From the NCBI GenBank assembly GCA_937864175.1, contig CALMJH010000063.1, forward strand, positions 1 to 64,000: a stretch of 64,000 nt of DNA. Reading direction: 5' to 3'. Below are positions 788 to 29,704 of this stretch, piece after piece. The DNA comes from an uncultured Burkholderiales bacterium (GTDB lineage: Bacteria > Pseudomonadota > Gammaproteobacteria > Burkholderiales > Burkholderiaceae_A). The notes beneath the pieces are model-generated. The model saw nothing but the letters and a program-made list of their open reading frames with translations, made no database searches and was not told the DNA's origin. Position 1 is the first letter of the stretch; each line of letters starts with the position of its first letter. Both the position numbers and the translations under genes were made by a program.

Positions 788-816
788 TTGACTATATGCC
801 TATAGAAGAATATTGT
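788..816 (+). promoter_or_regulatory. Putative soxR promoter with operator in the spacer
   Basis: TTGACT (788-793) and TATTGT (811-816) are separated by 17 bases, a good sigma70 arrangement. The spacer and first bases of the -10 box are filled by an imperfect inverted repeat, ATATGC-N8-GAATAT (794-813). The same sequence recurs before soxB. A dimeric ArsR-type repressor bound here would block RNA polymerase, giving autoregulation and possibly control of the divergent thioredoxin-like gene. No experimental support. Confidence 0.55.
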
Positions 817-824
817 CCACGTCC

Positions 825-1205
825 ATGGGTGGAGAAACTACGAAATTATCGCGAAAAGTCCAGTCCTCTGACTGCGTCAAAGGGCAGGGCATCGTCGATG
901 ACCTGACGCAGGATCAAGACGAACTCACGTTCATTTTCGATCGGGCGGCCCAGTACTTCTCTCTGCTCTCAGAGCCAGCCCGTCTGCGCATTATCCAGGC
1001 GGTCTGCACAGACGAGCGCTCCGTCCAAGAAGTCGTTGATCTAACCAGCCTGCCCCAGCCAAATGTCTCTCGCCACCTCAGCATGCTCTACCGAGCCGGG
1101 GTGCTCAGCCGTCGGCGCGAGGGGACCTTTGTTTTTTATAAGATTTCTGACCCCATGATCACAGAGCTCTGCCGGTCAGTCTGCGTTCGGCTGGCAATGA
1201 ATTAA
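825..1205 (+). CDS. soxR: ArsR/SoxR-family transcriptional regulator
   Basis: A 126-residue winged-helix protein of the ArsR family. The typical core is visible: LLSEPARLRIIQAV, then SVQEVVDLTSLPQPNVSRHLSML as the recognition helix region, then RREGTFVFYKISD as the wing. Its place between a thioredoxin-like gene and soxC is that of SoxR, which represses sox operons until reduced sulfur is present. Cysteines lie in the core helix (AVC) and near the C terminus (LCRSVC) and could be sensing thiols, as in the SqrR/BigR relatives, though the first is shifted three residues from their position. The reading frame opens at a TTG at 813, which overlaps the operator; ATG 825 is preferred but lies almost at the predicted transcription start. 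Confidence 0.75.
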   Translation: MGGETTKLSRKVQSSDCVKGQGIVDDLTQDQDELTFIFDRAAQYFSLLSEPARLRIIQAVCTDERSVQEVVDLTSLPQPNVSRHLSMLYRAGVLSRRREGTFVFYKISDPMITELCRSVCVRLAMN

Positions 1206-1282
1206 GTTGTACAAATTGGTTTTGAAGTGTCTGTTATGTCATTGTTTTTTATAAAAATAAACTGTTTAAGGGGGAGTGTCCT
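1206..1282 (+). promoter_or_regulatory. soxC leader region, AT-rich with a 12-base palindrome
   Basis: The 77 bases between the regulator and soxC are much more AT-rich than the surroundings. They hold TTGTACAA (1207-1214) and a perfect 12-base palindrome TTTTTATAAAAA (1246-1257), followed by a strong Shine-Dalgarno AAGGGGGAG (1268-1276) for the GTG at 1283. I could not place a convincing -35/-10 pair, and the 22-base motif found before soxR and soxB is not obvious here. Confidence 0.35.
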
Positions 1283-2626
1283 GTGACCAAACCGCAACAA
1301 CCACTTGGGCGCCTGCTGAAGGCACCCGAGAACTTCTTGGTGAAAGAAGACGCCAAGTCGCCAGAGAACATGCGTCGTAAATTTCTAGCGGCCTCAGCAG
1401 CCTCGGCGGGACTCGGTCTAGCCGCCGCTGCGCAGGCTGCCTCCAATCCTGTGAGTGGCAAGGGAGACCCCAACATCCTGACCCTGCCCGAGCATTCGGT
1501 CGGGCTCGGTGCACCCGTAGCCGCCAACGGCTATGGCCTGCCCTCCAAATACGAAAAAGGCCTCCAGCGCCGTGAATCCCCAGGTCTTACCAGGGTCTCG
1601 GCCGCCTCGGTCGCCTTCACGCCGCTGCAAGGCACCTTCGGCATCATCACGCCCAGTGGCCTGCACTTTGAGCGCCATCACCAGGGCTGGTGGGATATCG
1701 ACCCCTCCAAGCACCGCCTCATGATCAACGGCCTGGTGAAAAACCCCAAGGTCTACACCATGGACGACCTCATGCGTCTGCCATCGGTCTCCCGAATTCA
1801 CTTCATTGAGTGCGGGGCTAACACCGCCATGGAGTGGGGCAACGTGGCCGTTCCCACCGTTCAGTACACCCATGGCATGGTCTCTTGCTCAGAGTTCACG
1901 GGCGTGCCCCTGTCTGTGCTGCTTGAGGACTGTGGCTACGACAAGAAAAACGGCAAATACATACTGGGCGAGGGTGCGGATGGCTCTTCCATGACCCGAA
2001 CCATCCCCATCGATCGGGCGCTAGACGACGTCATCGTCGCCTACGGCATGAACGGTGAGATGCTGCGCCCTGAAAACGGCTATCCCCTGCGGCTGGTCGT
2101 GCCTGGTATCCAGGGTGTGTCCTGGGTGAAATGGCTTCGCCGCATCGAGGTGGGTGACATGAAGTGGGCCACGAAAGACGAGGCCGTTCACTACATCGAC
2201 CTGATGCCCGATGGCTCCCATCGTCAATACACCGGAATCCAAGAGACCAAGTCGGTTATCACCTCGCCCTCCGGTGGACAGACTATGCTGGACAAAGGCT
2301 TTTACAACATCAGCGGTCTTGCCTGGTCTGGCCGCGGCCGGATCAAGCGGGTCGACGTCTCCGTCGACGGCGGTAAAAACTGGCGAACCGCCAGACTCGA
2401 GGGGCCACAGCACTCAAAAGCCTTCTCAAGGTTTAACATTGACTGGGTCTGGAACGGCGCGCCAGCCATTCTGCAGTCGCGGGCCATGGATGAGACGGGC
2501 TACGTCCAGCCCACCATCCACCAGCTTCGCCAAGTGCGGGGCACTCGATCCATCTATCACAACAACATGATTCAGTCCTGGAAAGTGGCTGAGACAGGGG
2601 AGGTCAGCAATGTTCAAGTTAGCTAA
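1283..2626 (+). CDS. soxC: SoxC, sulfane dehydrogenase molybdopterin subunit
   Basis: A 447-residue periplasmic molybdoenzyme of the sulfite oxidase family that, with the cytochrome SoxD, removes six electrons from the sulfane sulfur on SoxY during complete thiosulfate oxidation. A Tat signal begins at RRKFLAAS (about residues 31-38) and ends near AAQA. The Mo-ligand cysteine lies in HFIECGAN (about 173-180), followed by the oxidoreductase domain and a C-terminal Mo-co dimerisation domain with DVSVDGGKNW. GTG 1283 is chosen because AAGGGGGAG precedes it; this puts about 30 residues ahead of the twin arginines. Its 3' end overlaps soxD by 17 bases. It needs molybdenum cofactor, made with mobA and moeA found downstream. 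Confidence 0.95.
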   Translation: MTKPQQPLGRLLKAPENFLVKEDAKSPENMRRKFLAASAASAGLGLAAAAQAASNPVSGKGDPNILTLPEHSVGLGAPVAANGYGLPSKYEKGLQRRESPGLTRVSAASVAFTPLQGTFGIITPSGLHFERHHQGWWDIDPSKHRLMINGLVKNPKVYTMDDLMRLPSVSRIHFIECGANTAMEWGNVAVPTVQYTHGMVSCSEFTGVPLSVLLEDCGYDKKNGKYILGEGADGSSMTRTIPIDRALDDVIVAYGMNGEMLRPENGYPLRLVVPGIQGVSWVKWLRRIEVGDMKWATKDEAVHYIDLMPDGSHRQYTGIQETKSVITSPSGGQTMLDKGFYNISGLAWSGRGRIKRVDVSVDGGKNWRTARLEGPQHSKAFSRFNIDWVWNGAPAILQSRAMDETGYVQPTIHQLRQVRGTRSIYHNNMIQSWKVAETGEVSNVQVS

Positions 2627-3353
2627 GTTTGGTCTGGCAGTCGCCGGTCTCGCGGTCGCAGCGTCGGTTGGCGCAGCCCAGCTCACGGGAATTGGTCGTA
2701 CGGCAACCGCCGACGAGATCAAGGCCTGGGACATCGATGTTCGTCCCGACTTCAAGGGTCTGCCCGCTGGATCGGGGTCGGTCGCCAAGGGGCAGGACGT
2801 CTGGGAAGCCAAATGCGCCAGCTGCCACGGCGTCTTTGGGGAGAGCACCGAGGTCTTTACCCCCATCGCAGGTGGAACCACAGCGGCCGACATCAAGTCT
2901 GGCAAGGTGGCCAACCTGGCCCGGGTTGATTTCCCCCAGCGGACCACACTGATGAAGGTGGCCACGGTCTCGACCCTCTGGGACTACATCAACCGGGCCA
3001 TGCCCTGGACCAACCCCAAGACCCTGACCACCGAGGAGGTCTACTCTGTCGTGGCCTACATTCTGAACCTCGGTGAGATAGTGCCGTCTGACTTCGTCTT
3101 GTCAGACAAAAACATTGCCGAGGTCCAGAAGAAGATGCCCAATCGCAACGGCATGCAGACCAACCACGGCCTCTGGGACCTCAAGGGAAAGCCCGATGTC
3201 AAGAATGTCGCCTGCATGAAGGATTGCAAGAAAGAGGTAACAATTACTTCATTTCTGCCCGGCTCCGCGGTGGACAGCCACGGCAACCTGATTGAGCAGA
3301 ACCGACCCATTGGTCCTGCTCGTGGTCTTGACACGACCACAGTAAAAAAGTAA
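2610..3353 (+). CDS. soxD: SoxD, cytochrome c subunit of sulfane dehydrogenase
   Basis: A 247-residue exported cytochrome c, the electron-accepting partner of SoxC. An N-terminal signal peptide ends near VGAAQ, and one haem site, CASCH, lies at residues 69-73; a plausible methionine ligand is in RAMPW. The Paracoccus SoxD is about 380 residues with two haems, whereas this protein has a single CxxCH; its C-terminal part instead carries two cysteines in the order C-x3-C (CMKDC) that cannot bind haem c by the usual motif. The start lies inside the end of soxC, which implies translational coupling. Confidence 0.9.
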   Translation: MFKLAKFGLAVAGLAVAASVGAAQLTGIGRTATADEIKAWDIDVRPDFKGLPAGSGSVAKGQDVWEAKCASCHGVFGESTEVFTPIAGGTTAADIKSGKVANLARVDFPQRTTLMKVATVSTLWDYINRAMPWTNPKTLTTEEVYSVVAYILNLGEIVPSDFVLSDKNIAEVQKKMPNRNGMQTNHGLWDLKGKPDVKNVACMKDCKKEVTITSFLPGSAVDSHGNLIEQNRPIGPARGLDTTTVKK

Positions 3354-3386
3354 CCCGTCTATTAACGCCTTTTAGAGGAGCAACAC

Positions 3387-3854
3387 ATGAGCATGAATCG
3401 TCGTGAAGTACTGAAAGCTGGTAGCGGCGCCGCCGTCTACACGGCATTGGCCTCCATGGGTTTTTTCGCAGCCAACCCCGCCATGGCCGCCTGGAACAAG
3501 GCCGCCTTTGAGACCAAGTCCATCGCTGACACCCTGAAAGTCTTGGGCGTCTCCAATCCCGCCAACAGCGCAGACGTGGTTATTACCTCGCCTGACATCG
3601 CCGAAAACGGTGCAGTGGTTCCCGTCGGTGTGGCCAGCAAGATCGCCAAGACCGAGATGATCGCCGTGATGGTTGAGAAGAACCCCGCCATGATGGCCGG
3701 CATGTACGAGTTCAGCGCCAACGCCCCTGCAGATGTCTCCATGCGGGTCAAGATGGGCCAGAGCTCTGACGTCTACGCGCTGGTGAAGGCCGACGGCAAG
3801 TTCTACATGACCAAAAAAGAAGTCAAGGTCACCCTGGGCGGTTGCGGCGGCTAA
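3387..3854 (+). CDS. soxY: SoxY, sulfur-carrier subunit
   Basis: SoxY forms a dimer with SoxZ and carries thiosulfate-derived sulfur on a cysteine close to its C terminus while other Sox enzymes act on it. This 155-residue protein ends in GGCGG, the family's carrier arm, with Cys153 as the attachment site. The N terminus is a Tat signal (NRREVLKAG, then a hydrophobic stretch ending near AMA), matching export of SoxYZ as a folded pair. A clear GAGGAG precedes ATG 3387. The soxZ gene follows after 49 bases. Confidence 0.97.
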   Translation: MSMNRREVLKAGSGAAVYTALASMGFFAANPAMAAWNKAAFETKSIADTLKVLGVSNPANSADVVITSPDIAENGAVVPVGVASKIAKTEMIAVMVEKNPAMMAGMYEFSANAPADVSMRVKMGQSSDVYALVKADGKFYMTKKEVKVTLGGCGG

Positions 3855-3903
3855 TCGCCTCCCGCCAAGCGACTTAACTTAACGAATTCAAGGAGATTTA
3901 AAA

Positions 3904-4215
3904 ATGGCAAGTCCAATGCGTATTCGTGCCCGTGCTGAGGGTGATGTAGCAGACGTCCGCGTCCTGATGGCCCATGAAATGGAGACCGGTCAGCGAAAGG
4001 GTAGTGATGGCAACGTTATTCCCGCCTGGTTCATCCAAGAGGTCACCGCCTCCCACAATGGCAAGCAGGTCATGGTCGCCCAGTGGGGTCCTGCGGTCTC
4101 CAAGAACCCCTACCTGCAGTTCAAGGTCAAGGGGGCCAAGGCAGGCGACAAGATCGTCGTGACCTGGAAAGACAACAAGGGCGAGAGCCGTACCGACGAG
4201 GCAGCAGTAGCCTAA
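3904..4215 (+). CDS. soxZ: SoxZ, sulfur-carrier partner subunit
   Basis: A 103-residue immunoglobulin-like protein that pairs with SoxY. Conserved elements include the MRIRA start, VLMAHEMETGQR, VIPAWFI and the DKIVVTW strand near the C terminus. There is no signal peptide, as expected, because SoxZ is carried to the periplasm by SoxY's Tat signal. AAGGAG lies just upstream of ATG 3904. A hairpin terminator follows 11 bases after the stop, so soxCDYZ may form one transcription unit with partial read-through into soxAXB. Confidence 0.96.
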   Translation: MASPMRIRARAEGDVADVRVLMAHEMETGQRKGSDGNVIPAWFIQEVTASHNGKQVMVAQWGPAVSKNPYLQFKVKGAKAGDKIVVTWKDNKGESRTDEAAVA

Positions 4216-4226
4216 GCCGGTGAAAT

Positions 4227-4256
4227 TACGGAGTCCCAGTGGCTCCGTAGTTTTTT
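4227..4256 (+). terminator. Rho-independent terminator after soxZ
   Basis: The seven-base stem TACGGAG/CTCCGTA (4227-4233 and 4243-4249) closes a nine-base loop and is followed by GTTTTTT. It divides soxCDYZ from soxAX. Confidence 0.8.
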
Positions 4257-4308
4257 AGACTAGAGGTTTCATTCGTTCATATTTCTTTGTCATCGAGGAG
4301 ACACAACC

Positions 4309-5109
4309 ATGAGTCTAAAAATAATAGCGACTCTCGCTGTCGCGAGTGGGTTTGTGTTGAGCGCCCCTGCGTTCGCACAGAAGACCGAAACCGAAAAAGG
4401 CATTGATCGCTATCGCGAACTGATTGCCGACGGCAACCCAGCCGAGCTCTTCGAGATGGAAGGCGAGGAGATTTGGAAGAAAAAGGCAGGACCCAAGAAC
4501 GCCTCTCTAGAGAAGTGTGACCTGGGCCTGGGTGCCGGCGTTGTCAAAGGCGCTTACGTTCAGCTTCCTCGCTACTTCTCAGATGCGGGCAAGGTCCAGG
4601 ATCTGGAAATGCGTCTGGCCTATTGCATGCAGACGCTGCAGGGTGTAGAGCCCAAGGTGGCGGACTACAACAAGGACGACCATAAAAAAGTAATTGCCCT
4701 GGTTACCTATGTTGCGGCTCAGTCAAAGGGCATGCCGGTTGCGGTTCCCCAGGGCCACCCCGAAGAGAAGCGCATGTACGAGGTCGGCAAGCGAACATTT
4801 TTCTATCGGGCCGGTCCGTATGACTTCTCCTGTGCAACTTGTCACGCGGCCGATAACACTCGGATTCGTCTGCAGGGTCTGCCGAACCTCACTCAAAACA
4901 AGCCCGCCGGTGAGGCCTTTACCTCTTGGCCTGCTTATCGCGTGAGCAACGGTCAACTCTGGCCCATGCAGCAACGCCTAAATGACTGCTACCGTCAGCA
5001 GCGATTCCCAGACCTTGCCTTCGGTAGTGAGACATCGGTAGCTTTGTCGGTCTATATGGGGGTGCAAGGTCAGGGCGTGAAGTCATTGGCCCCAACCATC
5101 AAGCGCTAA
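4309..5109 (+). CDS. soxA: SoxA, L-cysteine S-thiosulfotransferase haem subunit
   Basis: SoxA with SoxX couples thiosulfate oxidatively to the SoxY cysteine in the periplasm. This 266-residue protein has a Sec signal peptide ending at AFAQ (about residue 24), one haem-binding CATCH at 175-179, and the active-site cysteine in RLNDCYRQQRFP (Cys227), which becomes a persulfide haem ligand in characterised enzymes. The N-terminal domain has two further cysteines (EKC and AYC) but no CxxCH, so this is the single-haem SoxA type. GGAGA precedes ATG 4309; soxX follows after 20 bases. Confidence 0.95.
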   Translation: MSLKIIATLAVASGFVLSAPAFAQKTETEKGIDRYRELIADGNPAELFEMEGEEIWKKKAGPKNASLEKCDLGLGAGVVKGAYVQLPRYFSDAGKVQDLEMRLAYCMQTLQGVEPKVADYNKDDHKKVIALVTYVAAQSKGMPVAVPQGHPEEKRMYEVGKRTFFYRAGPYDFSCATCHAADNTRIRLQGLPNLTQNKPAGEAFTSWPAYRVSNGQLWPMQQRLNDCYRQQRFPDLAFGSETSVALSVYMGVQGQGVKSLAPTIKR

Positions 5110-5129
5110 TCAGGCCAGGAGACTAGAAC

Positions 5130-5759
5130 ATGAAAAAAACAACCATTGCACTCGTTTCTGCATCTATTCTGGCGATTGCCGGATGTGCCCAGACCTACTC
5201 GGCAGCCGACCTCGACAAGATGGCGGAGGATGCGCTCAAGTCCTCGTTCAAGGAAAAGGGCATCGCCAAGACGGACCGCCTCAACCAGGATGCCGTCAAC
5301 AAGGCCTGTTCTGCCGCGGAGATGGCCGGTAAAGACCTGGACCCCGCTGTCCGCAAGTCGATTGAAGAAGCCAACATGAAGACCGTCAAGTTTCCTTCCG
5401 ATGGCAAGTTCTTGGGCGACTGGAAGCAGGGTGAGAAGGAGGCCCAGAGTGGCCGTGGCATGACCTTCACAGACAAAGCAGGAGAGCCGAACGGGGGCAA
5501 CTGCTACAACTGCCACCAGATCAGCAAGCAGGAGATCTCTTACGGTACGCTCGGCCCAAGCCTTTACAACTACGGAGCTCTGCGGGGCTACGGCGATGAC
5601 ATCGTCAAGTACACCTGGGGCAAGATTTATAACGCCAAGGCCTACAACGCCTGCACCAACATGCCACGCTTTGGTCACCAGAACATCCTGACAGAAAAGC
5701 AGATGAAGGACATCATGGCCTTGCTCTTGGATCCCAACTCGCCGGTCAATCAGAAGTAA
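5130..5759 (+). CDS. soxX: SoxX, haem subunit of the SoxAX complex
   Basis: A 209-residue monohaem cytochrome, partner of SoxA. The haem site CYNCH is at residues 125-129 and the likely axial methionine is Met178 in NMPRFG, as in other SoxX proteins. The N terminus ends in a lipobox (AIAGC, Cys19), so the protein is predicted to be an outer- or inner-membrane lipoprotein, which would tether SoxAX. An extra segment of roughly 70 residues between the lipobox and the cytochrome domain makes it longer than short SoxX forms. A terminator follows. Confidence 0.94.
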   Translation: MKKTTIALVSASILAIAGCAQTYSAADLDKMAEDALKSSFKEKGIAKTDRLNQDAVNKACSAAEMAGKDLDPAVRKSIEEANMKTVKFPSDGKFLGDWKQGEKEAQSGRGMTFTDKAGEPNGGNCYNCHQISKQEISYGTLGPSLYNYGALRGYGDDIVKYTWGKIYNAKAYNACTNMPRFGHQNILTEKQMKDIMALLLDPNSPVNQK

Positions 5760-5784
5760 GCTGTTCCACTACATGTGGTTCATC

Positions 5785-5815
5785 AAGGCCCCTTTTTTAC
5801 AGAGGGGCCTTTTTA
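5785..5815 (+). terminator. Rho-independent terminator after soxX
   Basis: Perfect stem AGGCCCC/GGGGCCT (5786-5792 and 5804-5810) with an 11-base loop, followed by TTTTTA. It separates soxAX from soxB, which has its own operator-like sequence. Confidence 0.85.
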
Positions 5816-5824
5816 CGTATAAAA

Positions 5825-5844
5825 ATATTCATCAATAGGCATAT
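5825..5844 (+). promoter_or_regulatory. Putative SoxR operator upstream of soxB
   Basis: Imperfect inverted repeat ATATTC-N8-GCATAT, ending four bases before the soxB ATG. Its reverse complement matches the soxR promoter sequence at 20 of 22 positions. A TATAAA at 5818-5823 could be the -10 element, putting the transcription start inside the operator. The only Shine-Dalgarno candidate, ATAGG, lies within the operator, so soxB has a very short leader. Confidence 0.6.
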
Positions 5845-5848
5845 AAAC

Positions 5849-7570
5849 ATGGAACTGAATCGTCGGGAATTTATGGGTGTCATGGCCGCAGGTGCGGCCG
5901 CTGGCATGTTTGGCAGCTGGGGGGAGGCCGCAGCCGCTGCATCGAAGGCAGGCAAGCTTTACGAACTGCCCAAGTTTGGCAACGTGAGCTTTCTGCACTT
6001 CACAGACTGTCATGCGCAACTCATGCCCGTCTACTTTCGCGAGCCCAACGTCAACCTGGGTGTGGGCAGCATGCAAGGACAGGTGCCCCACCTCGTCGGC
6101 GAGGCGCTTCTAAAAAAATACGGCATCCCCCTGCAGTCGCCGCTGGCCCATGCCTATACCTACCTCGACTTTGAAAAATCAGCCAAGGCCTACGGCAAGG
6201 TGGGTGGCTTTGCGCACCTCGCCACGCTGGTCAAGATGATGCGTGCCAGCCGTCCCCAGGCTTTCTTGGTCGACGGTGGTGACACCTGGCAGGGTTCGGC
6301 CACTGCACTCTGGACCAACGGTCAGGACATGGTCGATGCGACCAAGTTGCTGGGCGTTGACATGATGTGTCCCCACTGGGAATTTACCTACGGCGCTGAC
6401 CGCGTCATGGAGATCGTGAAGAAGGACCTGGCCGGCAAGATTGAATTCTTGGCCCAAAACGTCAAGACCAATGATTTCGGCGACCCCGTCTTCAAGCCCT
6501 ATGTCATCCGTCAGCAGAATGGCATTCCCGTGGCGGTGATTGGCCAGGCCTTCCCTTACACCCCGATTGCAAATCCTCGGCACTTTGTACCCGACTGGAC
6601 CTTCGGAATTCAAGACGACAACATGCAGAAGATGGTCGACGAGTGCCGTGCGAAGGGAGCCAAAGTGGTGGTCGTCATTTCTCACAACGGCATGGACGTC
6701 GACCTGAAGATGGCCTCGCGCGTTCGTGGCATCGACGCTATTTTGGGTGGTCACACCCACGACGGCGTGATCCAGCCGATTAAGGTGAAAAACGCTGGCG
6801 GTGTCACGCTGGTAACCAACGCCGGCTCCAACACCAAGTTTCTGGGCGTGCTGGACTTCGACGTTAAAAACGGCAAGGTCGCCGACTTCCGCTACAAGCT
6901 TCTGCCCGTCTTTGCCGACATGCTGCCCGCTGACAAGGATATGCAGGCCTTTATTGACCGAGTACGCGCGCCATACAAGGCCAAGCTTGAAGAGACGCTG
7001 GCTGTGACCGAGGGCATGCTCTACCGACGCGGCAACTTCAACGGCAGTTTTGACCAACTCATTGTGGATGCACTGATGGAAGTCAAGGGGGCCGACCTGG
7101 CCTTCTCACCTGGTTTCCGCTGGGGGACCTCGCTGCTGCCAGGACAGGCGATTACGCGTGAGCATGTTATGGATCAGACTGCCACTACCTACTCCTATTC
7201 CACCCTGACCGAGATGACGGGCGAGATGATCAAGACGGTTCTCGAGGACGTCTGCGACAACCTCTTCAACCCCGATCCCTACTACCAGCAGGGCGGTGAC
7301 ATGGTCCGTGTGGGGGGTCTACAGTACGCCTGTGCGCCCCTGGAAAAGATGGGCAGCCGTATTCAGGACATGCGTCTTAACGGAAAGCCCATTGAAGCCA
7401 GCAAGAAATACAAGGTGGCCGGCTGGGCGCCCGTGGCCGAAGGAGCAACCGGTGTGCCGGTCTGGGATGTGGTGGAGACCTGGCTGAAGGACAAGAAAAA
7501 GATCTCACCCCGCAAGATCAATACCCCCAAGCTCATCGGCATGAAGGGTAATCCCGGAATTGTCTTGTAA
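5849..7570 (+). CDS. soxB: SoxB, thiosulfohydrolase
   Basis: SoxB is a di-manganese enzyme of the 5'-nucleotidase/calcineurin-phosphoesterase superfamily that hydrolyses the terminal sulfone of SoxY-S-thiosulfonate, releasing sulfate in the periplasm. The 573-residue protein starts with a Tat signal (NRREFMGVMAAG). Metal-binding motifs are present: FTDCHAQLMP (about 51-60), GGDTWQG (about 143-149), SHNGMD (about 279-284) and GGHTHDG (about 304-310). The C-terminal 5'-nucleotidase domain, with a WGTSLLPGQ-type loop, follows. It sits between two terminators and behind its own operator, so it is probably expressed separately from soxAX. Confidence 0.96.
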   Translation: MELNRREFMGVMAAGAAAGMFGSWGEAAAAASKAGKLYELPKFGNVSFLHFTDCHAQLMPVYFREPNVNLGVGSMQGQVPHLVGEALLKKYGIPLQSPLAHAYTYLDFEKSAKAYGKVGGFAHLATLVKMMRASRPQAFLVDGGDTWQGSATALWTNGQDMVDATKLLGVDMMCPHWEFTYGADRVMEIVKKDLAGKIEFLAQNVKTNDFGDPVFKPYVIRQQNGIPVAVIGQAFPYTPIANPRHFVPDWTFGIQDDNMQKMVDECRAKGAKVVVVISHNGMDVDLKMASRVRGIDAILGGHTHDGVIQPIKVKNAGGVTLVTNAGSNTKFLGVLDFDVKNGKVADFRYKLLPVFADMLPADKDMQAFIDRVRAPYKAKLEETLAVTEGMLYRRGNFNGSFDQLIVDALMEVKGADLAFSPGFRWGTSLLPGQAITREHVMDQTATTYSYSTLTEMTGEMIKTVLEDVCDNLFNPDPYYQQGGDMVRVGGLQYACAPLEKMGSRIQDMRLNGKPIEASKKYKVAGWAPVAEGATGVPVWDVVETWLKDKKKISPRKINTPKLIGMKGNPGIVL

Positions 7571-26360: not shown

Positions 26361-26502
26361 GGTAGGCCCCAAGGGTGTTACAAGGGTTTTCCCTATAACC
26401 CGATTTGCATAGGACGAGTAACCTCGACTCAAGAAAAAGTTAAGCAGGACTTATGCGTTCAGACGCATATACCAACCCGATCTGTTCAGAGGAGACACCA
26501 GC
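26361..26502 (+). promoter_or_regulatory. Intergenic leader before the formate dehydrogenase structural genes
   Basis: This 142-base gap holds a perfect inverted repeat TATGCGT-TCAG-ACGCATA (26452-26469), 34 bases before the next ATG, and a weaker GGGTT-N8-AACCC repeat near 26383-26400. GAGGAG supplies the ribosome site. I could not place a sigma70 promoter; TTGCAT (26405-26410) is one possible -35. An FNR-type TTGAT-N4-ATCAA site is not present. Confidence 0.45.
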
Positions 26503-26700
26503 ATGGACCAGAGCAAACGCCGTCGTTTTTTTGGGCTGATCGGGGGCGCTACGGCGGCCGCCGCAGCAGTCGCAGTCGTCAAGAGCCCAGTGACCCAGAC
26601 CACTGAAGTGGCCAACACCACGGCCCAGAACGCCGAGCCCAAGTCCGGTTACCAGCTAACCGAGCACGTTCGCCGCTACTACGAAACCACGCTGTCCTAA
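26503..26700 (+). CDS. Small Tat-signal protein of formate dehydrogenase cluster
   Basis: A 65-residue protein consisting of a twin-arginine-like signal (KRRRFFGLIGGATAAAAAV) and a short tail ending in YQLTEHVRRYYETTLS. Such short proteins occur immediately upstream of the catalytic subunit gene in many proteobacterial formate dehydrogenase loci and are annotated as a formate dehydrogenase region Tat target. A GAGGAG ribosome site and a complete frame support it. Its function is not known; it may act as an assembly aid or be a minor subunit. Confidence 0.82.
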   Translation: MDQSKRRRFFGLIGGATAAAAAVAVVKSPVTQTTEVANTTAQNAEPKSGYQLTEHVRRYYETTLS

Positions 26701-26728: not shown

Positions 26729-29704
26729 ATGACTATCCTACGCAAGAAGTCTTCAGCCCCAGCCTCCCGCGCCAGCGGACTGGTCTCCTCACTCGGACGG
26801 GCCATCGAGTCGCGTCTTCCCACTCTGGATCGGCGTAGCTTCCTGAAGCGCTCCGGCCTCGGTGTCGGTGCGGGTATCGCGGCCGGCCAACTCAGCTTCG
26901 TTCGCAAGGCTCAGGCCAAGCCCGAGGGAGCCGACAAGCTCGATGGCAAAGGCAAGATCGAGGTCAAGCGAACTGTCTGCACGCACTGCTCGGTGGGCTG
27001 TGCCATTGACGCAGTCGTAGAAAACGGCATCTGGACGCGGCACGAGCCTGTCTTCGATTCGCCCATCAACCTCGGTGCCCACTGTGCAAAGGGCGCGGCC
27101 ATTCGTGAGCATGGCCACGGCGATCATCGTCTGCGCTACCCGATGAAGCTCGTCAATGGCACCTACACCCGAATCAGCTGGGACGAGGCCCTCGACGGCA
27201 TCACCAAGAAAATGCGGGCCCTCACCAAGGCCCATGGCCCTGACTCTCTGTTTTTGGTTGGTTCCTCAAAGTGGAACAACGAGCAGGCCTATATGGGCCG
27301 CAAACTCGTGGCTTTCATGGGTACCAACAACTGTGACCACCAGGCCCGTATCTGTCACTCCACCACGGTTGCAGGTGTTGCCAACACCTGGGGCTATGGG
27401 GCCATGACCAACAGCTACAACGACATGCGCAACGCCAAAGCAGCGCTCTACATCGGTTCGAACGCTGCTGAAGCACACCCGGTCTCCATGCTCCACCTCT
27501 TGGCGGCCAAAGAGCAGAACGGCTGTAAGGTAATCGTCGCTGACCCGCGTTTCACCCGCACGGCGGCCAAGAGTGACCAGTACGTCCGCATTCGGTCGGG
27601 CACAGACGTTGCCTTCCTCTTCGGCGTGCTTCATCACATCTTCAAAAACGGCTGGGAAGACAAGCAGTACATCAACGACCGTGTCTTCGGCATGGACGCG
27701 GTTCGCAAAGAGGTCATGGAGCAGTGGACGCCCGCACGAGTGACCGAGGTCACCGGTGTGCCCGAGGCCCAGGTGGCCCAGGTCGCCCGCACCATGGCCA
27801 TGAACCGTCCCAGCACCATCGTCTGGTGTATGGGCCAGACCCAGCACACCATTGGCCACTCCATGGTTCGGGCCTCTTGCATTCTGCAGCTGGCCTTGGG
27901 CAACATCGGCAAGTCTGGTGGTGGCGCAAACATCTTCCGTGGTCACGACAACGTTCAGGGCGCCACCGACGTGGGCCCCAACCCCGACTCTCTGCCTGGC
28001 TACTATGGTCTGGCTGAGGGTTCCTGGAAACACTTCTGCGGCGTCTGGGGTGTTGATTTCGATGCCATGAAAGCCCGCTTTGCGCCCGGCATGATGGAAG
28101 AAAAGGGCACTACCGTCTCTCGTTGGGTGGACGCCGTGTTGGAGTCCAATGACAACGTGAAAGGTGGTAGCGTGAAGGGCCTGTTCATGTGGGGCCACGC
28201 ACCCAACTCGCAGACCCGCGGTACCGACATGCACAAGGCGATGGCGGCCCTTGATCTGCTGGTGGTCGTGGATCCCTATCCGTCTGCCACAGCGGCCATG
28301 GCCAACCATCCCATCGAGGGCGTCAAGAACAACCCCAACCGTGAGGTCTACCTCCTGCCCGCGGCCACCCAGTTTGAGTGCGCGGGTTCCGTGACCGCCT
28401 CCAACCGCTCGATTCAGTGGCGTGAGAAGGTGATTGACCCGCTCTTCGAGTCGCTTCCTGACCACGTCATCATGCAGGCCCTCGCCGACAAACTGGGCTT
28501 CGGCGCTGAGATCTCCAAGAATTACAAGATGCTGAAGACCAAGTTTCATGGTCGCGAGTGGCGCGAACCAGAGGTTGAGTCCATCTTGCGAGAGATCAAC
28601 AAGACGGTCTGGACCATCGGCTACACAGGCCAGTCGCCCGAGCGTCTCAAGGCCCACATGCGCAACATGCACCTCTTCGATGTCAAGACCCTGCGCGCCA
28701 AGGCTGGTAAGGATAAGCAGACAGGCTACGACCTCTCGGGCGATTACTTCGGTCTGCCCTGGCCCTGTTACGGCAACGAGAAGCTCAAGCATCCTGGCTC
28801 ACCAAACCTCTACGACACCAGCCGTCACGTCATGGATGGCGGTGGCAACTTCCGCGCCAACTTTGGCGTTGAGAAAGACGGCGTGAGCCTGCTGGCGGGC
28901 AAGGGTTCCCACTCTAAGGGTGCTGACGTGAAGGAGGGCTACCCCGAGTTCGACCACGCCCTGGTCAAGAAACTCGGCTGGTGGGACGAACTCACGGCGG
29001 AAGAGAAGGCACTGGCCGAGGGCAAGAACTGGAAGACCGATCTGTCCGGGGGCATCATCCGCGTGGTCATGAAGAAGCACGGCTGCCACCCGTTCGGCAA
29101 TGCCAAGGCCCGCGCCGTGGTCTGGAACTTCCCCGACCCAGTGCCCAAGCACCGCGAGCCGCTCTATGGCACCCGGCCCGACCTGGTTGCCAAATACCCG
29201 ACCTACGACGACATGAAGACCCACTGGCGTGTTCCCACCCTCTACAAGTCCATTCAGGACAAGGCGGTGGCAGACAAGGCCTACGAGAAATTCCCGCTCG
29301 TCATGACGTCGGGACGTCTTGTGGAATACGAGGGTGGTGGTGAAGAAACCCGTTCGAACAAGTGGCTGGCTGAGTTGCAGCAAGACAACTTTGTGGAGAT
29401 TAATCCCAAGGCTGCTGCAGCCCGTGGCATCCGAGACGGCGAGTGGGTCTGGGTCAAGTCGCCCACCGGCGCTCAGATCAAGGTCAAGGCCATGGTCACG
29501 GAGCGTGTTGGTGCGGACACCGTCTTCATTCCCTTCCACTTCTCGGGTTGGTGGCAGGGCAAGGACATGCTCAAGTCCTACCCCGACGGCGCAGCGCCGA
29601 TCGTGCGAGGTGAGGCGGTCAACACGGCCACGACCTACGGCTACGACGCTGTAACGATGATGCAGGAGACAAAAACCACCATTTGCCAGGTTGTGAAGGC
29701 CTAA
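26729..29704 (+). CDS. fdhA: Formate dehydrogenase catalytic subunit (Mo/W-bisMGD, Cys type)
   Basis: The 991-residue catalytic subunit of a periplasmic, FDH-N-like enzyme that oxidises formate to CO2. A Tat signal (DRRSFLKRS) sits at about residues 34-42. The N-terminal cluster is CTHCSVGC followed by CAKG, and Cys209 in ARICHS, directly before His, occupies the active-site position taken by selenocysteine in E. coli FdnG; the codon is TGT, so no selenocysteine is needed. The C-terminal molydopterin-binding domain ends in FHFSGWW and TTYGYDAVTMMQETK. Metal could be Mo or W; the neighbouring tungstate importer makes W a fair guess. Confidence 0.95.
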   Translation: MTILRKKSSAPASRASGLVSSLGRAIESRLPTLDRRSFLKRSGLGVGAGIAAGQLSFVRKAQAKPEGADKLDGKGKIEVKRTVCTHCSVGCAIDAVVENGIWTRHEPVFDSPINLGAHCAKGAAIREHGHGDHRLRYPMKLVNGTYTRISWDEALDGITKKMRALTKAHGPDSLFLVGSSKWNNEQAYMGRKLVAFMGTNNCDHQARICHSTTVAGVANTWGYGAMTNSYNDMRNAKAALYIGSNAAEAHPVSMLHLLAAKEQNGCKVIVADPRFTRTAAKSDQYVRIRSGTDVAFLFGVLHHIFKNGWEDKQYINDRVFGMDAVRKEVMEQWTPARVTEVTGVPEAQVAQVARTMAMNRPSTIVWCMGQTQHTIGHSMVRASCILQLALGNIGKSGGGANIFRGHDNVQGATDVGPNPDSLPGYYGLAEGSWKHFCGVWGVDFDAMKARFAPGMMEEKGTTVSRWVDAVLESNDNVKGGSVKGLFMWGHAPNSQTRGTDMHKAMAALDLLVVVDPYPSATAAMANHPIEGVKNNPNREVYLLPAATQFECAGSVTASNRSIQWREKVIDPLFESLPDHVIMQALADKLGFGAEISKNYKMLKTKFHGREWREPEVESILREINKTVWTIGYTGQSPERLKAHMRNMHLFDVKTLRAKAGKDKQTGYDLSGDYFGLPWPCYGNEKLKHPGSPNLYDTSRHVMDGGGNFRANFGVEKDGVSLLAGKGSHSKGADVKEGYPEFDHALVKKLGWWDELTAEEKALAEGKNWKTDLSGGIIRVVMKKHGCHPFGNAKARAVVWNFPDPVPKHREPLYGTRPDLVAKYPTYDDMKTHWRVPTLYKSIQDKAVADKAYEKFPLVMTSGRLVEYEGGGEETRSNKWLAELQQDNFVEINPKAAAARGIRDGEWVWVKSPTGAQIKVKAMVTERVGADTVFIPFHFSGWWQGKDMLKSYPDGAAPIVRGEAVNTATTYGYDAVTMMQETKTTICQVVKA

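Follow-up and report, generated by a model that had tools for sequence, protein, structure and literature searches.

Two sox regulators for which experiments are described, SoxR from Hyphomicrobium denitrificans and sHdrR, are reported to be of the SqrR/BigR type. SoxR from H. denitrificans is presented as an ArsR-type repressor that is linked to sox genes and is released through a sulfur bridge between two cysteines; it is 53% identical to SqrR and carries Cys50 and Cys116 in the SqrR/BigR pattern (PMC10451225). SqrR from Rhodobacter capsulatus and BigR from Xylella fastidiosa share the ArsR fold and have a site with half-sites (AT)ATTC separated by eight bases, the deduced SqrR site being given as ATTC-N8-GAAT (PMC9774250). 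For YgaV from Escherichia coli, presented in the same report as a member of the SqrR/BigR group without sox linkage, recognition was compared with ATTC-N8-GAAT; the protein is described to bind close to the transcription start in its own promoter and to affect formate dehydrogenase and other respiratory genes (PMC9774250). Here, we analyze a stretch of 64,000 nucleotides (nt) from an uncultured Burkholderiales bacterium (contig CALMJH010000063.1, positions 1 to 64,000; in the following “the window”) that contains a sox gene cluster headed by the gene of an ArsR/SmtB-type protein (positions 825-1205). The element under study is a 22-base sequence that occurs once in the promoter of this regulator gene and a second time, reversed, directly before soxB.

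These two 22-mers are very likely operators of the ArsR/SmtB-type protein, located at its own promoter and at soxB. As an autoregulatory operator of an ArsR protein the feature is ordinary in kind; no description of this variant was found in the literature searched. An original prediction had been derived from the window alone, and a pattern scan recovered both copies at the coordinates given there (operators 1 and 2 in Table 1), with zero mismatches to the pattern and identity at 20 of 22 positions. The six-base arms and the eight-base spacer of the prediction were found as well (ATATGC-N8-GAATAT, symmetric at five of six positions), only the distance to soxB had to be corrected from four to three bases ahead of ATG 5849. 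The pattern is expected to match zero times by chance (100 shuffles), and neither the window nor the assembly of 1.63 Mb (93.6% complete) contains a further 22-mer within three mismatches. Nevertheless, the likeness of the copies by itself is weak evidence because an all-against-all comparison of the window yields six pairs of 22-mers that do not overlap and share at least 20 positions (three pairs in direct and three in inverted orientation). In the five relatives possessing both sites the copies agree at 12–17 of 22 positions (inverted reading); the 20/22 identity is a peculiarity of the window genome. It is the position directly before sox genes together with the conservation in relatives that carries the case.

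The regulator copy lies between the -35 and -10 elements of a sigma-70-like promoter (TTGACT, 788-793; TATTGT, 811-816; spacer of 17), as predicted, and overlaps the former by one base and the latter by four bases. The scan that recovered promoter-like sequences gave four matches in comparison with 1.6 in shuffles. Our family set comprised 26 genomes including that of the window, and 15 of them carry a close orthologue of the regulator. In all 15 the palindrome is found before the sox-linked ArsR gene with the consensus ATATGC-N8-GCATAT, although with deviations. TTGACT directly precedes it in 14 of these genomes (the exception is G008; one extra base occurs in G012 and G016). The distance from TTGACT to ATG is 37 nt in nine and 35–39 nt in 12 of the 15 genomes; it reaches 79–86 nt in G008, G012 and G016. 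The start codon TTG 813 of the mechanical listing of open reading frames (ORFs) was replaced by ATG 825, since the former sits within the -10 box and an ATG is found 35–39 nt from TTGACT in those 12 genomes. Where the distance is 37 nt, the -10 position (23–28 nt after the start of TTGACT) stops 8 nt ahead of ATG, and therefore the transcript should start at or next to this codon. Judged from this spacing, the regulator mRNA is probably leaderless with its start at or beside ATG 825.

A symmetrised matrix was built from the 15 regulator-promoter sites of the family (the consensus step left out G011, which is identical to G002); leave-one-out scores range from 16.3 to 32.0. With E ≤1e-25 as limit, an order-level search of 399 genomes gave 66 that have the regulator; 56 of these are outside the family, and the best 20 of the 56 were opened. 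The matrix gave scores of 16.2–29.3 in 12 of these 20 previously unseen loci, distributed over families f31 (4/4), f10 (4/4), f46 (3/3) and f19 (1/1). The exact palindrome ATATGC-N8-GCATAT stands before the gene in Pandoraea terrae, Cupriavidus respiraculi and one metagenome-assembled genome (MAG) of Polynucleobacter. In family f20 a different palindrome, ATATAA-N8-TTATAC, is seen by eye at the same place in all five loci (L284, L287, L289, L290, L291), and the regulators of this family have a serine instead of the third cysteine described below; here the two partners, operator and regulator, would seem to have evolved jointly. The sox cluster is beside the gene in all 15 family genomes, and outside the family soxC adjoins the regulator in 19 of the 20 loci and soxYZA in the remaining one. 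Plasmid searches returned only ArsR proteins with less than 60% identity and, among the 21 matches listed, no betaproteobacterial sox cluster; in a Bradyrhizobium plasmid region soxB was present and no sox regulator was seen. C. metallidurans CH34 is reported to be without soxCD.

The soxB copy is less widely distributed. A matrix site that begins 25 nt ahead of the soxB ATG is present in six of the 15 genomes, across two genera, with scores of 23.4 (G000), 20.7 (G002), 15.0 (G003), 13.3 (G005), 12.8 (G001) and 9.8 (G017). AGG occupies a possible Shine-Dalgarno position in five of these six copies (GGG in G005), and such a role may explain part of the asymmetric identity of the soxB copies. 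In the window operator 2 follows a terminator-like hairpin, and a simpler scan found a hairpin in 12 of the 15 soxX-soxB gaps. Consequently, soxB should have its own start or rely on read-through. The promoter scan detected no consensus promoter before soxB; by eye TTTACA (5796-5801) and TATAAA (5819-5824) are seen there at a distance of 17 nt, but they are not conserved in relatives. The simpler scan showed no terminator in any of the 15 gaps between regulator and soxC, having also missed the hairpin behind soxZ, and from this arrangement soxC and the following genes may be co-transcribed with the regulator. In that case no site is expected before soxC, and the original prediction was right in seeing none there and none before soxA, where no strong matrix site occurs either.

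Further candidate sites extend beyond the two genes named by the prediction. Exactly three strong matrix sites are found in the window, at 793, 5824 and 26450 (the next best scores 4.8), and the third of them, operator 3, had been missed. It is kept in G002 (score 20.1) with both arms intact and the spacer changed in comparison with G000, and it was not found in G005, G007 and G008 (present in 2/5). In the whole genome the palindrome occurs within one mismatch at three places (zero for a reversed control) and within two mismatches at 20 places (two for the control). We opened 18 of these 20 places, including the three in the window; the two left out lie on contig C85, and two of the opened places scored below 4. 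Six of the 20 precede genes of sulfur or respiratory metabolism, namely the regulator, soxB, a formate dehydrogenase, fccAB, ccoN and a cytochrome c. The weaker site before fccA-fccB (flavocytochrome c sulfide dehydrogenase) is located just 5' of these genes (G000:C41:213612-213631, L235).

The upstream stretch scored for ccoN, cytochrome c and fccAB is approximate in those cases in which the match began inside the gene. With this proviso the ccoN site is clear in six of nine relatives tested (P ≤0.002), weak in G009 (P 0.046) and unconvincing in G014 (score 2.0) and G013; the ccoN locus of G007 begins at a contig end. The site before a cytochrome c of 100 amino acids (aa) is present in nine of 16 genomes (eight with P <0.005; G001 with P 0.013) and additionally in G010 (19.3). 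These ten are all but one of the 11 genomes in the window's genus, and the site was seen in no genome of the other genus. In the own genome the sites before ccoN and cytochrome c are weak (13.0 and 9.2), and G015 gives -11.7 and -7.7, respectively. In G000 the sequence TTGACCAAGATCAA precedes the ccoN site and TTGACTTGCATCAA the fccA site; both resemble FNR boxes. Sites before the cbb3 oxidase gene ccoN (L157, L158, L156, L162 and other loci) and the 100-aa cytochrome c (L184 and others) were encountered in much of the window's genus, those at ccoN behind FNR-like boxes. In L155 (G017:C1:1269334) a site scoring 17.7 is located close 5' of a gene that reads like an FNR-type regulator.

Several observations weigh against the explanation as operators of the sox-linked regulator. 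Outside the family eight of the 20 loci score below 12, including three loci of f38 (1.6, 8.9 and 11.7) and the five of f20 (4.9–8.6), and this test covered the best 20 of 56 genomes with a match. Three Polynucleobacter/Burkholderiaceae loci (L076, L077, L078) have the arms ATATGC and GCATAT 16 nt apart and not 8, and five Rhodocyclales loci (four Thauera, one Rhodocyclaceae MAG) retain the left part only. Symmetric co-change of the arms is weak, since the covariation score was matched by 20 of 500 shuffles and the count of pairs changed on both sides by 482 of 500. No soxB site scoring above 8 is present in the remaining nine of the 15 genomes, the fccAB site occurs at the same place only in G000, G001 and G002 of 24 genomes, and scores of 14–16 are reached also 5' of a phasin gene (14.9), close to an Lrp-like gene (16.4) and at a position with no link to sulfur (14.7).

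From these data it could be argued that the regulator's own operator alone is functional and that the sites at soxB, formate dehydrogenase, ccoN, cytochrome c and fccAB are due to chance or are merely promoter-like. The patchy occurrence of the soxB copy (6/15), operator 3 (2/5) and the fccAB site (3/24) fits this explanation, as do the AT-rich arms, which resemble -10 boxes, and the matrix matches above 8 at other positions of the sox loci than soxR and soxB (three in G002 and a single match each in G006, G009, G012 and G013; a match in G008 overlaps the regulator's own site), where 0.03–0.57 such matches are expected per sox locus. We regard it as unlikely, because the soxB copies are found at exactly the same distance in two genera, the arms of operator 3 are kept between G000 and G002 while its spacer changed, and the sites at ccoN and cytochrome c recur in relatives as described above. 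The scan of the genome and of related sox loci, which the original prediction had suggested, upheld an operator-like palindrome at the regulator's own promoter (15/15 in the family and 12/20 outside), whereas the soxB copy is missing in nine of the 15 genomes. The regulator gene and soxB, proposed as targets, do have sites, but with operator 3 and the weaker sites at ccoN, cytochrome c and fccAB they are probably not the sole targets.

The regulator itself was assigned to the ArsR/SmtB family by PF01022 (44.4 bits; cut-off 22) and NF033788 (77.2 bits; cut-off 55). Its AlphaFold model (mean pLDDT, the predicted local distance difference test, of 76.8) shows an ArsR-type winged-helix fold with Foldseek matches to SqrR, SmtB, BigR and CzrA, and the closest solved fold is SqrR 6o8k (E 5.7e-6). 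The label ArsR/SoxR of the original prediction holds as regards the ArsR type, yet the protein is outside the group of SqrR, BigR and alphaproteobacterial SoxR and without their cysteine pair. With the BigR equivalog model it scores 43 bits and four sox-linked proteins score 40.5–45.2, the cut-off being 155, and its scores against the BigR and SqrR chains are 31–35 bits. In a tree of 46 proteins a branch with 100/99 support separates 14 SqrR/BigR-like paralogues plus a candidate SoxR from Paracoccus from 26 sox-linked and five other ArsR proteins; the sox-linked proteins form a single clade in 32% of bootstrap trees. The tree contains several long branches and has to be read with caution. The positions of the SqrR cysteines C41 and C107 correspond to Q58 and A124 in the window regulator (hand alignment through a paralogue). 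Its own cysteines C61, C116 and C120 occur in all 24 regulators of the alignment, and outside the family this triad is complete in 15 of 20, the five f20 proteins being those without the third cysteine. In the model C61 follows a helix (51-60), and C116 and C120 are within another (110-125). Assignment to the SqrR/BigR/alphaproteobacterial SoxR group was rejected on the basis of the BigR score, the 100/99 split and the different cysteine positions.

The half-site of the operator is ATATGC where SqrR and BigR have (AT)ATTC; the spacing is the same and about one base differs per half-site from the deduced ATTC-N8-GAAT (PMC9774250). In the window site the right arm reads GAAT and the left ATGC, and the consensus of the relatives is GCATAT on both sides. 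The candidate SoxR from Paracoccus pantotrophus (L216:4365-4661, minus strand; named from its position) is an ArsR-type gene amid soxY, Z, A, B, C and D; it is 34% identical to the window regulator and 41% to the SqrR-like paralogue of G012, with which it groups. Such a separate SqrR/BigR-like paralogue was found in 14 of 25 relatives (L021-L029, L031, L032, L018-L020). Three of the paralogues gave 89–101 bits with the BigR model (below 155), and one gave 83.5 bits to BigR and 73.7 to SqrR.

These paralogues offer a second explanation, namely that a different regulator of respiratory genes, e.g., the SqrR/BigR-like paralogue, binds the palindrome and has the sox-linked ArsR gene as just one target among others. 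The sites before ccoN, cytochrome c and the formate-dehydrogenase-type operon, thus beyond the sox genes, and the equal spacing of the deduced SqrR site (PMC9774250) would agree with it. However, the starts of the 14 paralogue genes have no strong palindrome nearby (best score 8.7) and show other AT-rich repeats instead (by eye), the promoter of the sox-linked regulator has the best site and the one with the widest conservation, and the site is altered in f20, where the cysteines of this regulator differ. Moreover, the paralogue was detected in 14 of the 25 relatives, and the own genome showed no more than an ArsR fragment at the end of a contig. We consider it quite improbable that another regulator is responsible. 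Two further possibilities, a mobile repeat and a conserved peptide encoded by the copies (both copies read YMPI(E/D)EY in frame, and shadow ORFs cover them at 379-906 plus and 5813-6091 minus), can be dismissed, because the genome has no other copy within three mismatches and the relatives keep the palindrome with its fixed N8 and not the peptide.

If the palindrome is read by the sox-linked regulator, as we prefer, the following course of events can be proposed. A homodimer would bind ATATGC-N8-GCATAT. Since operator 1 takes up the promoter spacer and extends into the -10 element, the bound protein would exclude RNA polymerase and shut off its own gene and, via co-transcription, soxC and the following genes as well; the divergent thioredoxin-like gene is perhaps repressed jointly via the same operator. 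At soxB, behind the terminator-like hairpin, the protein would cover the stretch just 5' of ATG. Sulfane-sulfur or a related signal may then modify C61 and C116 (and C120 in most members), upon which the protein would leave the DNA and the sox genes would be expressed. We infer this release through the cysteines by analogy with what is reported for H. denitrificans SoxR (PMC10451225) and YgaV (PMC9774250). In this genome the same protein probably acts at the formate-dehydrogenase-type operon as well; an action at fccAB, ccoN and cytochrome c is less certain.

The coordinates of all features are compiled in Table 1. In each of the 15 family genomes the regulator is followed by soxCDYZAX, and soxB comes next in 14; it is cut at a contig end in G016, and the contig of G009 stops ahead of it. 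The divergent thioredoxin-like protein gave no match in Pfam or NCBIfam, and a homologue of its gene adjoins the regulator in 13 of the 15 family loci. Its identification as SoxS was rejected, as there was no significant match to a candidate Paracoccus SoxS (E 0.11). In genus g2 the gap between soxD and soxY amounts to 349–421 nt, and in the six loci with a match (L047-L052) it contains a cytochrome c related to the 100-aa one. The sox locus L058, from a record titled Bordetella parapertussis MAG, belongs to the window's genus, so this label looks wrong.

Table 1. Features of the window around the regulator, the sox genes and the three predicted operators.
Feature	Position	Strand	Remarks
Divergent thioredoxin-like protein with CPWC, 146 aa	297..737	-	possible co-target of operator 1
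Sigma-70-like promoter of the regulator gene, TTGACT-N17-TATTGT	788..816	+	9/12 matches; operator 1 fills the spacer
Candidate opposite-strand promoter of the divergent thioredoxin-like gene, TGGACA-N17-TATAGT	791..819	-	10/12 matches; same operator in the spacer
Operator 1 (predicted), TATATGCCTATAGAAGAATATT	793..814	+	inside the regulator promoter; matrix score 30.9, 30.2 with own genome left out
Sox-linked ArsR/SmtB-type regulator, 126 aa	825..1205	+	start ATG 825
soxC, soxD, soxY, soxZ, soxA, soxX	1283..5759	+	
Terminator-like hairpin 3' of soxZ	4222..4254	+	-18.3 kcal/mol, z -4.1
Terminator-like hairpin in the soxX-soxB gap	5785..5811	+	-18.1 kcal/mol, z -5.4
Operator 2 (predicted)	5824..5845	-	3 nt 5' of the soxB start; matrix score 23.4
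soxB	5849..7570	+	TIGR04486, 881.8 bits
Operator 3 (predicted), CTTATGCGTTCAGACGCATATA	26450..26471	+	precedes the formate-dehydrogenase-type operon; matrix score 21.0
65-aa protein with twin-arginine-like start (N-terminal RRR by eye)	26503..26700	+	first gene after operator 3; no Pfam match
Molybdopterin oxidoreductase, formate dehydrogenase alpha subunit type	26729..29704	+	Pfam molybdopterin domains; formate assignment is our reading

No description of this regulator group was found in the titles and abstract openings searched, a coverage from which subscription papers were mostly absent. The group may already be known under the name SoxR, since the profile used in the survey of sox-linked soxR genes (PMC10451225) may have counted some of its members. 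A wide respiratory regulon has at least a precedent in a different subgroup, because YgaV is described to affect respiratory genes.

Going further, although with some reserve since we hold it to be possible and not yet probable, this separate ArsR lineage may represent the master switch of lithotrophic electron flow in Betaproteobacteria. It would sense sulfur via C61 and C116 (usually together with C120), read ATATGC-N8-GCATAT and control jointly the electron donors (thiosulfate via sox, sulfide via fccAB, formate dehydrogenase) and the receiving chain (cytochrome c and the cbb3 oxidase, in addition to FNR-like boxes). Once an operator is defined for this second lineage, which is betaproteobacterial and has other cysteine positions, it becomes directly testable whether sulfur sensing by ArsR proteins arose more than once, and a prediction can be made as to the respiratory genes that respond to reduced sulfur in aquatic Burkholderiales with small genomes.

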